Virus record (IMG/VR): IMGVR_UViG_3300007735_000679
Span: 1-36,505 of that record
Reading direction: 5' to 3' (one strand)
Source of the DNA: a virus
DNA length: 36,505 bases
Numbering within the stretch: the first letter of the stretch is position 1; each line of letters starts with the position of its first letter. The translations under genes and the position numbers were made by a program. The notes under the pieces are model-generated. The model was not told the DNA's origin. It did no database searches and saw only the letters and a program-made list of their open reading frames with translations. This document shows positions 21,330 to 30,580 of the stretch, piece by piece.

Positions 21330-21538
21330 TGATCGTTTCGGAAACTCAACGCCTCTCGTGGCAACGCGACATCCTAAACGAGGCCAGAAGGCAACTGGTA
21401 AAATTGCGGGGTAGCGTTGGCCACGGGCAGGTCATCGACATCAACGCGATCATCGCGCAGGTGGATTCTGCGATGGTGATTGCATGGGAACTGATTGGAA
21501 AAGGAGAAAAGAAAAATGAACACACTAGACCAGATTAA
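21329..21538 (+). CDS. Hypothetical helical protein (69 aa)
   Basis: 69 residues, start overlapping the previous stop. Two amphipathic helices (SWQRDILNEARRQLVKLRG; IDINAIIAQVDSAMVIAWEL) separated by a Gly/His loop. The coding end overlaps the following gene by 23 bases. Function unknown. Confidence 0.55.
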   Translation: MIVSETQRLSWQRDILNEARRQLVKLRGSVGHGQVIDINAIIAQVDSAMVIAWELIGKGEKKNEHTRPD

Positions 21539-21863
21539 CCCTATCCATGTGTTGACCGCCAGGGTCAACAGCCTGGAGCAGGCCACCCGCCGACTTGAGG
21601 CGGCAAGGTTGGAGCTGCACGCAAAGATGGCCATGATGATGGAAATGAAATCCATCCCAGAAACTAAAGAACTTAAAATATCCGAATCGGTGAAGATGGA
21701 CGGCAATTCACCAGATGCGGTGGACAAGCGATACCGCATCTGGCAGGTGCTTTACGAGAATGGCTACACGGTGTCGTCCATCGCCCGAGCATGGAAGACG
21801 GACCGTGGTTCGATCCAGCACGCCAAGAAGCAGGGATGGAGGTCGAGGTATTTGAGTAAATGA
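21516..21863 (+). CDS. HTH DNA-binding protein with coiled coil
   Basis: 115 residues from ATG 21516, with AAGGAG just upstream. Residues about 10-45 form a coiled coil (VNSLEQATRRLEAARLELHA). Residues about 75-112 hold a helix-turn-helix (YENGYTVSSIARAWKTDRGS then IQHAKKQGWRSRY). It probably binds DNA as a dimer. ATGA overlap with the methyltransferase gene hints that it may regulate or cooperate with it. Confidence 0.68.
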   Translation: MNTLDQINPIHVLTARVNSLEQATRRLEAARLELHAKMAMMMEMKSIPETKELKISESVKMDGNSPDAVDKRYRIWQVLYENGYTVSSIARAWKTDRGSIQHAKKQGWRSRYLSK

Positions 21864-22876
21864 ATGAAAAAACACACCTCGACTTATTCAGCGGGATCGG
21901 TGGATTTGCCTTGGCCGCAAGATGGAACGGATACAGAACTGTTGGGTTCTGCGACTGCGAACCCTACGCCCAAGCCGTCCTCAAAAAACACTGGCCGGAA
22001 GTCCCGATCCACAAAGACATACGCGAGATACGAGGCGACGTATACGCAGGAGTCACTCTTCTCACAGGAGGATTCCCCTGCCAACCATTCTCCGTTGCCG
22101 GGGAGCGAAGAGGCAAGGATGATAACCGCTACCTCTGGCCGGAAATGCTCCGAGTCATACGCGAGGCCAAGCCGCGTTGGATCATTGGTGAGAATGTTGC
22201 TGGCATCGTCAACATGGCACTCGACCAAGTGCATTCTGACCTGGAAGGTGAAGGTTACGAAGTCGAAACGCTCATTATTCCAGCTTGCGCCGTCGATGCC
22301 CCGCACAGAAGGGACAGATGTTGGATTGTGGCTAACTCCAAATGCAATGGACAGTCTTCCGGCTCGGGACGAGGAGGCGTTGAGGAAGCAGTACGAATCG
22401 AACAGGTCTGGGAGAACAACCCATTCAACTCTTCGGGAACAGGTTGCGTATCCTCCCCCAAGCATGATGTGGCCGACTCCATCAGCATGCCCGAGGGGGG
22501 CGCATACAGGAAAGATCAGCGGAAGTGTGAGCGAGGACGGAAAGAGCAGGGTATCTGCCAACGGAACCAAGTGGGGAGCAACCCTCCAGACGGCAGTGAA
22601 GATGTGGCCGACTCCGACCCAGAGGGATGGGAAGGGTGGCTACAAGGGCGGCCGGATAAGGAATGGGAAGATATCCAAAGACACCTTGGACGTTGCGGTT
22701 CAGCATACGGACAATCAGGGGAAGCAATCTGGCTCCCTGAACCCAACATGGGTCGAGTGGCTCATGGGGTACCCAACCGGACACACCGCCTTAAGGGATT
22801 GGGCAACGCCATCGTCCCGCAAGTCGCGTCGGAAATCATTAAATGCATAAATTTGCTGGAAAAATCCATCCAATAA
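21860..22876 (+). CDS. C5 cytosine-specific DNA methyltransferase
   Basis: 338 residues. Canonical motifs: I at LDLFSGIGGF (8-17), IV at GGFPCQPFS with catalytic Cys74, VI at GENV (110-113), VIII at HRRDR (149-153), and a late RVAHGVPNR then RLKGLGNAIVPQVA for motifs IX-X. The target-recognition region (about 160-295) is short, polar and low in hydrophobics. It transfers a methyl group from SAM to cytosine. The specificity cannot be read from sequence. No cognate restriction enzyme is visible, so an orphan, anti-restriction or modification-starting role is likely. Its second frame is open for almost the full length. Confidence 0.9.
   Translation: MNEKTHLDLFSGIGGFALAARWNGYRTVGFCDCEPYAQAVLKKHWPEVPIHKDIREIRGDVYAGVTLLTGGFPCQPFSVAGERRGKDDNRYLWPEMLRVIREAKPRWIIGENVAGIVNMALDQVHSDLEGEGYEVETLIIPACAVDAPHRRDRCWIVANSKCNGQSSGSGRGGVEEAVRIEQVWENNPFNSSGTGCVSSPKHDVADSISMPEGGAYRKDQRKCERGRKEQGICQRNQVGSNPPDGSEDVADSDPEGWEGWLQGRPDKEWEDIQRHLGRCGSAYGQSGEAIWLPEPNMGRVAHGVPNRTHRLKGLGNAIVPQVASEIIKCINLLEKSIQ
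21864..22850 (+). CDS. Overlapping open frame inside the methyltransferase gene
   Basis: A 328-residue frame, shifted +1 from the methyltransferase, starts 4 bases after its ATG and runs nearly to its end. The first ~65 residues look like a shadow, but then come EDSPANHSPLPGSEEARMIT, ILTWKVKVTKSKRSLFQLAP, SMPRTEGTDVGLWLTPNAMD, two WPTP segments and GSLNPTWVEWLMGYPTGHTA. These resemble segments I remember from phage methyltransferase-associated proteins. Part of the match (EWLMGYP) could be an automatic echo of the conserved VAHGVP motif in the other frame. Translation is unproven. Confidence 0.4.
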   Translation: MKKHTSTYSAGSVDLPWPQDGTDTELLGSATANPTPKPSSKNTGRKSRSTKTYARYEATYTQESLFSQEDSPANHSPLPGSEEARMITATSGRKCSESYARPSRVGSLVRMLLASSTWHSTKCILTWKVKVTKSKRSLFQLAPSMPRTEGTDVGLWLTPNAMDSLPARDEEALRKQYESNRSGRTTHSTLREQVAYPPPSMMWPTPSACPRGAHTGKISGSVSEDGKSRVSANGTKWGATLQTAVKMWPTPTQRDGKGGYKGGRIRNGKISKDTLDVAVQHTDNQGKQSGSLNPTWVEWLMGYPTGHTALRDWATPSSRKSRRKSLNA

Positions 22877-23133
22877 CCAAAGTCATTCCGGATGATGACA
22901 CAACCATCATCATGAATGGATTTGACGATGCTCTTTTGGGCGCGTCATTTATAGGCGACAAATACCATGCCGTTTACTCGGTGGAATGGGTAATCAAGTC
23001 GCTTATGAAAAGAAACCGATGGAACAGGCAGGATGCTATTGATTTCGCGTATTACAACGTGATTTCAAATAATTATTCTGGCCAAATGCCGATTTTTGTA
23101 GATATGATGCCGAACATAAGGAGAACCAAATGA
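22843..23133 (+). CDS. Conserved phage protein of unknown function
   Basis: 96 residues, overlapping the methyltransferase end by 34 bases. Core pattern: GFDDALLGASFIGDKYHAVY, then VIKSLMKRNRWNRQDAIDFA with YYNVIS and a final PIFVDMM. The 'DDAxxG...YxxxxxIxxLMxx...xxAxxFxxxN' arrangement is common in small proteins of phage replication modules, always of unknown function. ATGA coupling to the following glycosyltransferase. Confidence 0.65.
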   Translation: MHKFAGKIHPITKVIPDDDTTIIMNGFDDALLGASFIGDKYHAVYSVEWVIKSLMKRNRWNRQDAIDFAYYNVISNNYSGQMPIFVDMMPNIRRTK

Positions 23134-24254
23134 AAATATGGACAAACAACACAAATCAAATCCATAAGGTCGATGATAATATGCTTCACGTCCGAAACAC
23201 CTACGTGCTTCCGGATGAGTTGACCGGACCCACCTGGGACGATTCGATCCCTTGCCCGCACAAGATCAAGCCATACTACAAAGGCCGCGCAACGGGCGGA
23301 GCCACGGCGGTCTACCGCTCCGGAGCAATCGGGGATGCGGTCATAGCAACGGCCTTCGTACATTACCTTGTCCAAGAGTCTGGTGGTGTAGTGGACGTTT
23401 ACGCACCCGCTCGTAACCTTCCTCTTTACGCTGGGCTAGGCGCAAAGCTGTGGCCGCTGCCCTGCTCATTGGAGGCTTGGGACAGCTACGATGCCCATCT
23501 GCCAACGGACGACCTATTCAGCGGACAGGTTGGTAACACCAAGCTGGGGACAGGTCCGGGCAACTGCTACAAGCGGATCTACGAATGGATGGGTGTTTGG
23601 GATGAGAAGACCATGGCCAAGTATTGCCGCCCCTATCTTTACCTAATCGACCCAGATCACAACGAGCTAAAGGAACTAGGAAAATGGCCGCTGCCTGTGC
23701 CTTACTTCGCCTACCATGTATCGTCAAGCGGTCCGACCCGCACCTACCCGCCCAAGATGGGTCAGGACGCGGTGCTGGCGTTGCTGGAAGCCCACCCACA
23801 CCATCACGCTGTCATTATTGGGCTGGATAACAGCAACAACTTCAAAGTTGACCATCCTAGGGTGATCGACCTGTTCAACACAACCAAACAGATCCGCTCG
23901 CTGTTCCCGATAATCGCCAATGCAGACTTTGTGGTGGCTCCTGATAGCAGTGTCAACCACATAGCAGCGGGGCTAGACACGGCCTGCGTGTCGTTGTGGG
24001 GAAGCTACGACCCGATGGATCGGGTGACCTACTACCCTAAGAACGTGTCGGTGTTCAAGCCAGACACCTGTCCACACGCGCCGTGCCGTCCGCATGCGGG
24101 TCTACCGCAGGCGAAGTGCAAGGATGCTAGCAACAAGACCAAGGGAACACAATACTTCTGCAATGCCCTTCGCAACATCACAGCGGAGGACATTGTGGAG
24201 GCTTCGCACAAGGCGAGGGAGTTGGAGGATAAATCACATGAGGAGAAGAAATGA
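23130..24254 (+). CDS. Glycosyltransferase family 9-like (heptosyltransferase type)
   Basis: 374 residues. The N-terminal Rossmann part has SGAIGDAVIATAFVHYL (about 64-80), matching the GxGD...T loop of ADP-heptose:LPS transferases. The C-terminal half has ADFVVAPDSSVNHIAAGLD and VSLWGSYDP, the usual donor-side signature (DSxxxHxAxAL...FG). It therefore adds a sugar from a nucleotide-sugar donor. It may alter the host envelope, or glycosylate modified DNA or virion proteins. It is ATGA-coupled to a small membrane protein. Confidence 0.8.
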   Translation: MKIWTNNTNQIHKVDDNMLHVRNTYVLPDELTGPTWDDSIPCPHKIKPYYKGRATGGATAVYRSGAIGDAVIATAFVHYLVQESGGVVDVYAPARNLPLYAGLGAKLWPLPCSLEAWDSYDAHLPTDDLFSGQVGNTKLGTGPGNCYKRIYEWMGVWDEKTMAKYCRPYLYLIDPDHNELKELGKWPLPVPYFAYHVSSSGPTRTYPPKMGQDAVLALLEAHPHHHAVIIGLDNSNNFKVDHPRVIDLFNTTKQIRSLFPIIANADFVVAPDSSVNHIAAGLDTACVSLWGSYDPMDRVTYYPKNVSVFKPDTCPHAPCRPHAGLPQAKCKDASNKTKGTQYFCNALRNITAEDIVEASHKARELEDKSHEEKK

Positions 24255-28186: not shown

Positions 28187-28320
28187 TCTTCATCCTCCTT
28201 TACGATGTGCCAATCTTTCCACTCCCCATCATTCCTCATAAGCCATTCATAGGCTATTTTGGATGATGGGAAGCCGGATTTTACGAGTTTCCCGTCTGAT
28301 TCTATTACATTCCAAATCAT
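28183..28320 (-). CDS. Small protein of the amidoligase island (45 aa)
   Basis: 45 residues, ATGA-coupled to the amidotransferase stop: MIWNVIESDGKLVKSGFPSS, then KIAYEWLMRNDGEWKDWHIV and an acidic end. A small beta-beta-alpha pattern with several Trp residues. The acidic end could be a modification target, but nothing proves it. Short coupled genes at both sides support coding. Confidence 0.6.
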   Translation of the reverse strand: MIWNVIESDGKLVKSGFPSSKIAYEWLMRNDGEWKDWHIVKEDEE

Positions 28321-29366
28321 GAGACTACCCCTTCCGGAATGTTTCTTTCCAATTCACCATCTTTGTATCCCTCCTCATATCCGGCTTGGTAGTTTTTATC
28401 TAGCGATGCGGGGGGTTTTGGTGCCCCAATCAAACCATCATCGCATCCGGACAAATAGCCATCCTCCCATGCTTCAGAGTTAGTATTTATTCCGGACTTT
28501 TTCTCGTAGTCGGGAAACAACTCTTTTTGGGATTTCGGTTCACCGGATGATGCCTTGGAGGATGTTGGCCAATACTCTCCGGTGTAATATCCGGAACCAT
28601 ATCCGGATGATCCCAAGGATAAAGAATCCTTCGATCCATAGGATCGTGAGGGCATAGGTTTGACGTGCTCCTTCTCAATTATCTCCCCATTCCGGCACGT
28701 TGTGGCCACGTCCGGTTTAAGCAACCAAGGCACATTCTTGGATGAATCAAAGATGGAAGCCAATTTCACAACGTCACTAAACGCTGTGCCTACTACCAGT
28801 CCTCCATTCACCAATGAGATATACAGATTGGGCGAACTATCTCTATAGATTGTTAAGGCACCATTCTTCCGGAGGATAAGGAGGCCAGCGTATCCGGTGT
28901 AATACTTGTGCAACTCCTTCCACCCCTTGCCAATCGTGAACGTATTAAACAAATCCTCAGAATCGCAAACACCAAGTTTTTTGCGCTTTTTTCCGGAGTA
29001 CGTCACGATGCCATTGTGAACTAGGGCAAGTTCCGAGTTTACGAACGGATGCGTATTTTCAACTCCAAGGGAATTGGTGGACGTTCTGCCATGGAAGATT
29101 CCCGCCGTACATGGCGCGATTTTTCCCCTAGCTTGGTATGGCTGGTCAACCAACCCGCTCCAATCCTTTGGATCGGGGTAATTGAATCCCGCCAAGCTTC
29201 CGGAGGTCAACCGGAGGGATGTGATTTCCTTAATATCCCCACCGGACAGAGCATATCCAAAACCATCTTTTTGATCCTTTAAGAGATCGCGTGACGTTTG
29301 GATGATCTCGCAGATTTTATCTTCCGATACTTTTTGACTAACTGTGAACCCTAATAATTTGCACAT
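28317..29366 (-). CDS. Class II glutamine amidotransferase (Ntn hydrolase)
   Basis: 349 residues, with AAGGAG 8 bases before the ATG. Cys2 is the expected N-terminal nucleophile after Met removal; HGRTST (92-97), NTHPF (104-108) and HNG (117-119), plus DSEDLF, are the glutamine-binding and oxyanion residues of the family. It would release ammonia from glutamine. Residues about 230-349 form a Ser/Gly/Tyr-rich tail with repeats DGYLSGCDDG and GYEEGYKDGE. The gene follows the amidoligase by 16 bases, so the two probably act on one peptide modification. The typical synthase domain is absent. Confidence 0.85.
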   Translation of the reverse strand: MCKLLGFTVSQKVSEDKICEIIQTSRDLLKDQKDGFGYALSGGDIKEITSLRLTSGSLAGFNYPDPKDWSGLVDQPYQARGKIAPCTAGIFHGRTSTNSLGVENTHPFVNSELALVHNGIVTYSGKKRKKLGVCDSEDLFNTFTIGKGWKELHKYYTGYAGLLILRKNGALTIYRDSSPNLYISLVNGGLVVGTAFSDVVKLASIFDSSKNVPWLLKPDVATTCRNGEIIEKEHVKPMPSRSYGSKDSLSLGSSGYGSGYYTGEYWPTSSKASSGEPKSQKELFPDYEKKSGINTNSEAWEDGYLSGCDDGLIGAPKPPASLDKNYQAGYEEGYKDGELERNIPEGVVS

Positions 29367-29382
29367 ATATGTTCTCCTTTAT

Positions 29383-30477
29383 TTAACTAATCGCCATTCC
29401 ATCGGTTAGATGGATATTATTTTCATTTACCAATTTTTCCCGCAATGCGTTTGCGTGATTGGAATTGAATTGCCGGAAACGTTTCCACACATAAAGCCGA
29501 AGACTATCCGGCATTGATTCCATGCGGATCAGGTTTTCGATGCTTACGGATGCATAATATCCTTCTGCCATATTTGCGATCCGATCTATTTCCGTGGAGT
29601 TTTGGATAAACTGACAGAGCTTAATCCAACCCAATATCTTCCAAAAATCCAACGTTCCGCCATGCAACCGGACTTCACAAGTCCGGTGTTTACGATAGGC
29701 GGGAATGTAATTTATCATCCGATACCTATCGGATGAAAACCGATATTTCCCGCTCTTGGGGATAGGATGGTTTTGCTGGCAGAATCTATTGGATAGGCGC
29801 GATGGCGGTACCAATTTGACCAATGCGGGAAGACATTTCACCAATCTTTTCGCCCGCTTGGTTGCTGTCACCTTGGAAATACCTCTTTGATCCAAGTGTA
29901 TATGCATCCCGCAGGTTTGGTTGACCTCACCGCCCATAGAAGAAAGCTTTTCAGTCACCTTCTTTAAGCTTTGGGGATTATCCGTACGCATCGTCAATTT
30001 GTACTCTCTTCCGGAGCCGGATTCATCGTTCTCACTTTGGTAAGTCACGGATGCATCTCCGGTGACTTCGACAAGGCAAGATGGCAAATCCCTTTGGCTT
30101 GGCGGGATATAGTCGGAATGGAAAACGCATTCCAATTCCACGGAAACCAAGTTTCCGGAAAACTTTTTGAAATACTTTTCCTTTAAGGATTCCTTCTCAA
30201 TTGGGTTACCCTTTAGAAGATACCGCGTTTGCCTCATGATATCCCTACCCTTGCGGATATGGAATTTCACGTTATCCGATCCGGCTCGTTGCATGAAACG
30301 TGAACGAATCGAAAAGGCATTTTGATCGTAAAGATCACCTAGGCCATGAAGTCCTAGGATACGCTTTGCCATGATGGTTTTACGCTCTTCCCGGTTCTTG
30401 CGATTATCTTGGGCGGTAATCACTTCCGCGCTACTAGTTGTGTTTTCCATGGGGTAACTTTGGGCGGTTTTTCCCAT
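29383..30477 (-). CDS. Amidoligase-family protein (PF12224-like)
   Basis: 364 residues from ATG 30477 (the frame is open to 30567; starts at 30450 and 30372 are also possible). Characteristic blocks: VSVELECVF, GDASV, CGMHIHLDQRG, and TCEVRLHGGTLDFWKILGWI, matching the glutamine-synthetase-like amidoligase family which forms amide or isopeptide bonds using ATP. About 65 extra N-terminal residues (including ENTTSSAEVITAQDNRKNRE) are less conserved and may be tag-like. Together with the class II amidotransferase it makes the known two-gene amidoligase module; the target is unknown. Confidence 0.82.
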   Translation of the reverse strand: MGKTAQSYPMENTTSSAEVITAQDNRKNREERKTIMAKRILGLHGLGDLYDQNAFSIRSRFMQRAGSDNVKFHIRKGRDIMRQTRYLLKGNPIEKESLKEKYFKKFSGNLVSVELECVFHSDYIPPSQRDLPSCLVEVTGDASVTYQSENDESGSGREYKLTMRTDNPQSLKKVTEKLSSMGGEVNQTCGMHIHLDQRGISKVTATKRAKRLVKCLPALVKLVPPSRLSNRFCQQNHPIPKSGKYRFSSDRYRMINYIPAYRKHRTCEVRLHGGTLDFWKILGWIKLCQFIQNSTEIDRIANMAEGYYASVSIENLIRMESMPDSLRLYVWKRFRQFNSNHANALREKLVNENNIHLTDGMAIS

Positions 30478-30580
30478 CCCGACAAGGTTTTTCTGCTGGA
30501 AAGGTGTGGTAGTTTTATTGGGGTATGGACTATCTAGGCACCTTATCAAAATCAATCGTAGGGGCATTTGCGGAAGATTT

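Follow-up and report, generated by a model that had tools for sequence, protein, structure and literature searches.

Does a second reading frame that stays open through nearly the whole of a DNA methyltransferase gene encode a protein, and if so, what would that protein contribute? The question is raised by the virus record IMGVR_UViG_3300007735_000679 of IMG/VR, a complete record of 36505 bases that we refer to as the window. As the sequence-only reading had pointed out, a gene for a cytosine-5 (C5) DNA methyltransferase (21860..22876) contains a +1 frame of 328 codons without a stop; in the list of open reading frames (ORFs) it appears with an ATG start at 21864..22850, nested in the larger gene at an offset of exactly +1, and all the peptides that had been quoted from it are found in its translation. 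We refer to the product of frame 0 as alpha and to that of the +1 frame as beta (Table 1). We regard it as highly probable that the locus encodes a two-subunit C5-methyltransferase, split over these two overlapping frames.

Openness of the two frames against chance

The null model was the shuffling of synonymous codons in one frame, with stops counted in the other. Over alpha codons 61-329 the +1 frame of the window has no stop where 6.83 are expected, and none of 2000 shuffles matched this. Taken alone in this single sequence, neither the first 60 codons (1 stop vs. 2.04, P 0.31) nor the stretch between motifs VIII and X (0 vs. 1.20, P 0.26) is significant. The sequence-only reading had named stops in the second frame of methyltransferase homologues as evidence that would speak against a second protein. 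Among viral contigs picked by alpha (80 loci kept, of which 77 remained after the removal of three contigs that were too short), 61/77 homologues are stop-free in +1 against a null mean of 6.0 stops per gene, and the other 16 have 1 to 6 stops.

The reverse comparison was made on loci picked by beta, after removal of duplicates and short matches (80 reduced to 78 for viral contigs, 80 to 74 for genomes). The alpha frame is stop-free in 72/78 viral and 69/74 genome loci (0.18 and 0.19 expected), with 7.61 and 6.85 alpha-frame stops predicted by synonymous shuffling of beta. In the third frame of the same loci, where the null predicts 14.6 and 14.4 stops, 15.2 and 14.1 are seen. Since each frame is open beyond the null given the other, and the third frame is at the null, each appears to be kept in its own right. 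An alpha openness figure of 191/191 was not used, as it is conditioned on the presence of motif X in alpha. As a control, 22 related methyltransferases with motifs IX and X in frame 0 average 8.45 whole-gene +1 stops (null 10.45); none of them is stop-free in +1 over the whole gene, and most still have +1 open, over a shorter length, across the modules described below.

Regional change of the frame under selection

The third codon position of beta is the first of alpha, so that an excess of change at alpha position 1 reads as beta-type evolution. Between the window and locus L001, divergence at the three alpha codon positions is 0.07/0.07/0.33 over codons 1-60, which is ordinary for alpha, and 0.53/0.20/0.20 from motif VIII to motif X, which is ordinary for beta. 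The same excess at position 1 is seen over the VIII-X stretch in L032/L036 (0.17/0.02/0.01 over 121 codons), L061/L068 (0.13/0.01/0.01 over 118 codons) and L038/L043 (0.14/0.03/0.01 over 190 codons). Position 3 changes more than position 1 at the N-terminus in 72/74 pairs, and position 1 more than position 3 in the VIII-X stretch in 55/74, the 19 exceptions including poorly aligned pairs with unlike modules. These pairs were drawn from 241 of 339 loci, the rest lacking motifs found by pattern; independence of pairs, here and in the 87-pair test below, means that no sequence was used twice, and some loci of different scans share a contig.

Over motifs IV-VIII, where both proteins are conserved, synonymous change in alpha is 0.239, compared with 0.340 upstream. 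This reduction of synonymous variation in the overlap, which had been suggested as a check, was found in 67/87 pairs (Wilcoxon 1.6e-7; 12 frame-broken loci, L187-L306 and loci without pattern-found motifs were left out). The remark that the recognition region of the methyltransferase is low in hydrophobic residues, as if shaped by the other frame, also held: between motifs VIII and X the alignment shows alpha to be hydrophilic and weakly conserved, and the substitutions in this stretch are those expected of the +1 frame. These comparisons, made at the level of DNA and codons, demonstrate purifying selection on both frames.

Division of methyltransferase motifs between alpha and beta

Alpha belongs to the C5-cytosine methyltransferase family by both score and motifs: it matches PF00145 with 142.7 bits (curated cut-off 22) over residues 7-162 only and phrog_363 with E 1.3e-76, M.HhaI aligns to its residues 14-170 only, and motifs I, IV, VI, VIII and X, including a conserved motif X RLKGLGNAIVPQ, can be read off the alignment. 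Motif IX was not found in alpha by alignment, and the PF00145 and M.HhaI matches end at residues 162 and 170; the recognition domain and motif IX that PF00145 places between VIII and X on the same chain were not found there.

Beta matches PHROG_1008 ('DNA methyltransferase') over residues 55-310 with E 2.1e-31, as do 74/74 members of our beta alignment A1. It has no match in Pfam or NCBIfam, and the members of A1 have scattered weak matches only in Pfam. Along beta we find an N-domain (..TSGRKC..LTWK.K.TKS.R.LFQLAPS.P..), then W-P-T-P modules, then SLNPxWVEWLMGYPxGHT, which we read as motif IX; the modules we read as target-recognition cassettes, predicted to contact DNA.

Where these parts would sit in an ordinary enzyme is indicated by relatives in which they share a frame with the catalytic motifs. 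A scan for the pattern VEWMMG[LF]P, a relative of the motif IX of beta, yielded 120 loci, of which 59 have the layout of the window. Motifs IX and X lie within alpha itself in 34, with +1 modules in 33/34; four (L199, L209, L249 and L268, the last two identical in printed sequence) have a single frame that unites the catalytic motifs with modules, IX and X; four have modules, IX and X in an ORF without a catalytic motif, 13 are cut and six are of other kinds. Of the pattern loci, 22 that combine IX and X in a single frame looked at first like single-chain enzymes; most of them keep the modules in +1, and therefore only L199, L209 and L249/L268 are called single-frame here. The single chain of L199 matches PHROG_363 (4e-58) and, over residues 243-372, PHROG_1008 (3e-32), and that of L249 matches PHROG_363 (3e-61) and, over residues 188-370, PHROG_1008 (1.1e-37). 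Furthermore, a module beginning LPTPVVNDMG.. is in frame between VIII and IX in L199 and in the +1 frame in L205, L236, L252, L289 and L300. Single chains that match both PHROGs, and a module that occurs in either frame, place the beta modules and motif IX, by sequence position, where single-chain relatives have their target-recognition domain.

The structure model of L211 superimposes on residues 10-324 of M.HhaI over 234 residues (Z 24.4, rmsd 2.9), its linker being modelled with low confidence, and the best Foldseek rows for it cover 164-179 columns of M.HhaI. The comparison of beta with methyltransferases containing an IX-X stretch (hhalign) is partly circular, because that set was gathered with the motif IX pattern.

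In the +1 frame of the catalytic region of L249 there is a remnant resembling the beta N-domain, which suggests that this single-frame gene originated from an overlapping ancestor. In L208 and L218 the ORF that carries modules, IX and X is closely preceded by a short catalytic ORF, and L071 has an extra module-like stretch (3350-3544) past motif IX, in the same frame as beta.

The twin start

The two start codons lie together in the window, in the context ..TAA ATGAATGAAA, where the stop codon of an upstream ORF also falls. Of 82 unique relatives that share this N-terminus in the alignment, 77 keep a pair of start codons 4 nt apart behind upstream sequence that varies, and 80 have no +1 stop within codons 1-61; in other clades this stretch of +1 is interrupted by stops. 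An ATG in the beta frame precedes the conserved N-domain in 172/179 loci, a count that left out loci with a cut beta ORF or a late-starting N-domain match. Translation of the upstream ORF may be coupled to the alpha and beta starts, and coupled or twin initiation would provide both subunits.

Reshuffling of the modules

The 218 betas that were dissected contain 534 modules (median 43 aa), which form 153 clusters and occur in 142 distinct orders. The order is 0-2-1 in the window and L001, 0-2-3 in L003 and L006, and 0-2-51 in L004. The DNA at the module start, GATGTGGCCGACTCC, has exactly two copies in the window, at 22466 and 22601, compared with 0.09 matches expected when two mismatches are allowed. 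Recombination at this repeated DNA would be a means of exchanging modules. The otherwise similar betas of L145 and L146 differ in the length of an Arg-Glu repeat in the last module, as if a simple repeat expanded or shrank.

On these data we propose the following mechanism. Ribosomes reaching ATGAATG would start in either frame, so that one message would give both subunits. Alpha would bring cofactor binding, the catalytic cysteine, motifs I-VIII and motif X, and beta the N-domain, motif IX and three tandem modules that serve as cassettes for target recognition; the pair would correspond to the two-domain enzyme known from M.HhaI, and their association would yield an active enzyme that modifies phage DNA. 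A swap of cassettes in beta would direct the enzyme to a different site and keep the catalytic part. The translation of beta, its association with alpha, the methylation and the targets of the cassettes are what we infer.

Distribution of the overlapping pair

Sequence matches show beta to be a genuine family with a wide distribution: relatives of beta occur in at least 587 viral contig stretches, 91 phage records and 13 plasmid records, and a distant beta used as query found 265 relatives. Bacterial and archaeal genomes gave 337 beta-like stretches; 80 of these were retained, under titles that include Clostridia, Paenibacillus, Bacteroidetes, Proteobacteria, Acidobacteria, Treponema, Planctomycetes and others. 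In sets that had been picked by alpha or beta matches, the profile search found the +1 overlap of alpha and beta in 80/80, 80/80 and 80/80 loci of three large sets, and it is present in 11/11, 7/7 and 6/6 of the fetched records. Motif IX lies in the +1 ORF in 75/80, 68/80 and 79/80 loci of the large sets. Named cases include gp58 of N15 and phages of Rhodobacter, Komagataeibacter and Synechococcus; both frames are annotated in the records of K1G (ORF31/ORF30) and of Paenibacillus phage Bloom.

Some relatives have the C-terminal parts in changed frames (L024, L049, L058, L059, L065, L135, L145, L146, L151, L155, L156 and L157), the catalytic half running into the beta C-terminus or the beta N-domain into motif X. 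Gene decay, errors of assembly or a transition toward a single-frame enzyme may each explain them. In L185 (Krischvirus LF73P4, a large T4-like phage) a beta-like N-domain runs into motif X at 933-1709, with the IX stretch in another frame, apparently a frame-broken member of the family. In L353 (1763-3062) alpha stops after motif VIII, and the modules, IX and X follow in the beta frame, in a split like that of M.AquI.

We give about an even chance to the wider proposition that these loci form a broad class in phages and prophages, in which cassettes are kept in the second frame and overprinting is reciprocal, the beta N-domain lying over alpha motifs and the alpha linker over beta cassettes. 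Repeat recombination would then shuffle one to five cassettes and reprogram specificity, perhaps for several sites, with the catalytic frame untouched.

Relation to known enzymes

A similar two-polypeptide enzyme, M.EcoHK31I, was reportedly described in the 1990s (in 1995). The gene for its small polypeptide is nested, out of frame, within that for the large one, an arrangement that the nesting of beta in alpha would share. According to PMC3404938, M.EcoHK31I (YGGCCR) has a large polypeptide with motifs I-VIII and X, in which the recognition domain is predicted, and a small one with motif IX. The window shows the same division, with I-VIII and X in alpha and IX in beta, so that its enzyme most likely works like M.EcoHK31I, a likeness drawn from the division of motifs. 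In the passages of PMC3404938 consulted, neither the arrays of reshuffled cassettes nor the twin start is mentioned for M.EcoHK31I. The C5-methyltransferase M.AquI (CYCGRG) is likewise made as two polypeptides (PMC3404938); unlike enzymes of that kind, whose small subunit has IX and X, the window has motif X in alpha, and it is L353, with motif X in the beta frame, that resembles M.AquI.

The multispecific C5-methyltransferases of Bacillus temperate phages have several recognition domains in series (PMC12707154). The modules of the window are also in series; however, multispecificity is described for the Bacillus enzymes only, and these have recognition and catalytic domains on one polypeptide, whereas the modules of the window are in +1. 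In methylases of actinophages, an out-of-frame HNH endonuclease, the ShiLan domain, has been described (PMC11855218). The window resembles this case in the use of a second frame within a phage methylase gene, but beta, unlike the mobile HNH insertion, has no Pfam match and spans the recognition region of the enzyme itself. The PHROG library gives PHROG_363 (alpha) and PHROG_1008 (beta) one function name and is silent on their being two frames of one gene. We found no description of phage dual coding of this type in the full-text literature, in which most subscription papers are not covered, and in the literature searched we did not find the spread, the twin start or the second-frame cassette arrays described.

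Alternative explanations

That the +1 frame is a shadow, open merely because methyltransferase motifs and codon usage exclude stops, was one option of the sequence-only reading. Since the beta N-domain lies over conserved alpha motifs, part of the similarity among betas could indeed be shadow, and the VIII-X stretch of the window, which by itself is not significant, fits such an origin. However, the synonymous-codon nulls fail in both directions, the reverse test of openness included, none of the 22 control methyltransferases has a stop-free +1 frame over the whole gene, and where alpha is free to vary, positions change as beta codons. We consider a shadow extremely improbable; genuine dual coding, which had been listed beside it, is supported by reciprocal openness, the switch in substitution pattern and the lower synonymous change. 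The third option was a programmed frameshift, in which the catalytic half of alpha would be translated before a slip into +1, giving a fused catalytic and recognition chain. Such a chain would look like the single-frame relatives, and L058, L059 and L065 do join the catalytic half to the beta C-terminus in one frame. Nonetheless, the fusion is unneeded, because +1 is constrained upstream of motif VIII, in a region that the product would not use, and because beta has its own ATG, paired with that of alpha in most aligned relatives and present in frame before the N-domain in nearly all loci counted; the alpha frame, moreover, is kept open up to motif X. We hold a frameshift to be very unlikely, on evidence that does not include a search for a conserved slippery site.

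We also give very little credence to the view that beta overprints the gene as an independent protein without a role in methylation, such as an anti-restriction protein, a regulator or an inhibitor. In favour of this view, nothing corresponding to the beta N-domain is present in the single-chain enzymes examined, and no fold can be recognised for beta alone. On the other hand, alpha is beside beta in every locus of the sets examined (all picked by alpha or beta), the modules and motif IX of beta correspond to the recognition region of single-chain enzymes, and alpha is the frame in which motif IX was not found. Several observations weigh against the two-subunit enzyme that we prefer: the beta profile has no match among PDB sequences up to E 10, AlphaFold2 gives beta alone a poor fold (mean pLDDT 59), its N-domain has no known relative outside the beta family, and the HMMER alignment of L211 (IX-X stretch) to M.HhaI 269-307 is weak (3.7 bits). 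The layout also breaks at times, as the +1 ORF is without motif IX in 17/160 viral loci (5/80 and 12/80), some of them cut contigs and others with C-terminal parts in other frames. Finally, the recognition modules are in beta and not, as predicted for M.EcoHK31I (PMC3404938), in the large subunit, and therefore we liken the window enzyme to M.EcoHK31I without counting it as a member of that type.

Features of the locus and its surroundings

The upstream ORF has no match in Pfam, and scans for promoters and terminators gave no greater yield in the window than in shuffles. A gene for a glycosyltransferase family 9 protein lies directly downstream of the methyltransferase genes (23130-24254). On the minus strand, the region 28317-30567 holds an amidoligase gene (PF12224, above cut-off) next to an ORF whose glutamine-amidotransferase match is weak and below cut-off.

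Table 1. Coordinates of alpha, beta and associated elements in the window
Feature	Positions	Strand	Match or basis
Alpha, C5-cytosine methyltransferase ORF, 338 aa, ATG start, motifs I-VIII and X	21860..22876	+	PF00145, phrog_363, M.HhaI match
Beta, +1 frame ORF, 328 aa, ATG start; N-domain, three W-x-T-P modules, putative motif IX	21864..22850	+	phrog_1008
Twin start ATGAATG (ATG of alpha 21860, ATG of beta 21864)	21860..21866	+	
Upstream ORF, 122 aa; its stop TGA (21861-21863) overlaps the alpha ATG and abuts the beta ATG	21495..21863	+	
Beta N-domain, residues about 62-155, overlying alpha motifs IV-VIII	22047..22328	+	conservation in both frames
Beta module 1 (WLTPNAMDS.., cluster 0)	22329..22469	+	
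Beta module 2 (WPTPSACPR.., cluster 2)	22470..22604	+	
Beta module 3 (WPTPTQRDG.., cluster 1)	22605..22733	+	
Beta motif IX-like stretch, SLNPTWVEWLMGYPTGHT	22734..22787	+	best-conserved part of beta; hhalign to IX-X methyltransferases (partly circular)
Alpha codons 161-283, hydrophilic VIII-X linker	22340..22708	+	stop-free, +1-frame substitution pattern
Alpha motif X, GNAIVPQ	22802..22822	+	alignment
DNA repeat GATGTGGCCGACTCC, copy 1 (DVADS in alpha, MWPTP in beta)	22466..22480	+	
DNA repeat GATGTGGCCGACTCC, copy 2	22601..22615	+	

Implications

Long overlaps on the same strand are frequently dismissed as artefacts of annotation; in the records considered here one frame is annotated, or both are called 'DNA methyltransferase'. 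The present overlap, of roughly 0.8-1 kb, is kept in phages and in bacterial genomes of many phyla, with strong evidence of selection on both frames and a testable role proposed for each, and it offers a natural comparative system in which two proteins evolve on one DNA. Our analysis suggests that expressing one frame alone would make such a phage methyltransferase seem inactive, and it suggests a fresh look at the location of the recognition domain in M.EcoHK31I. The cassettes may also provide a route to the prediction of phage methylation specificity.
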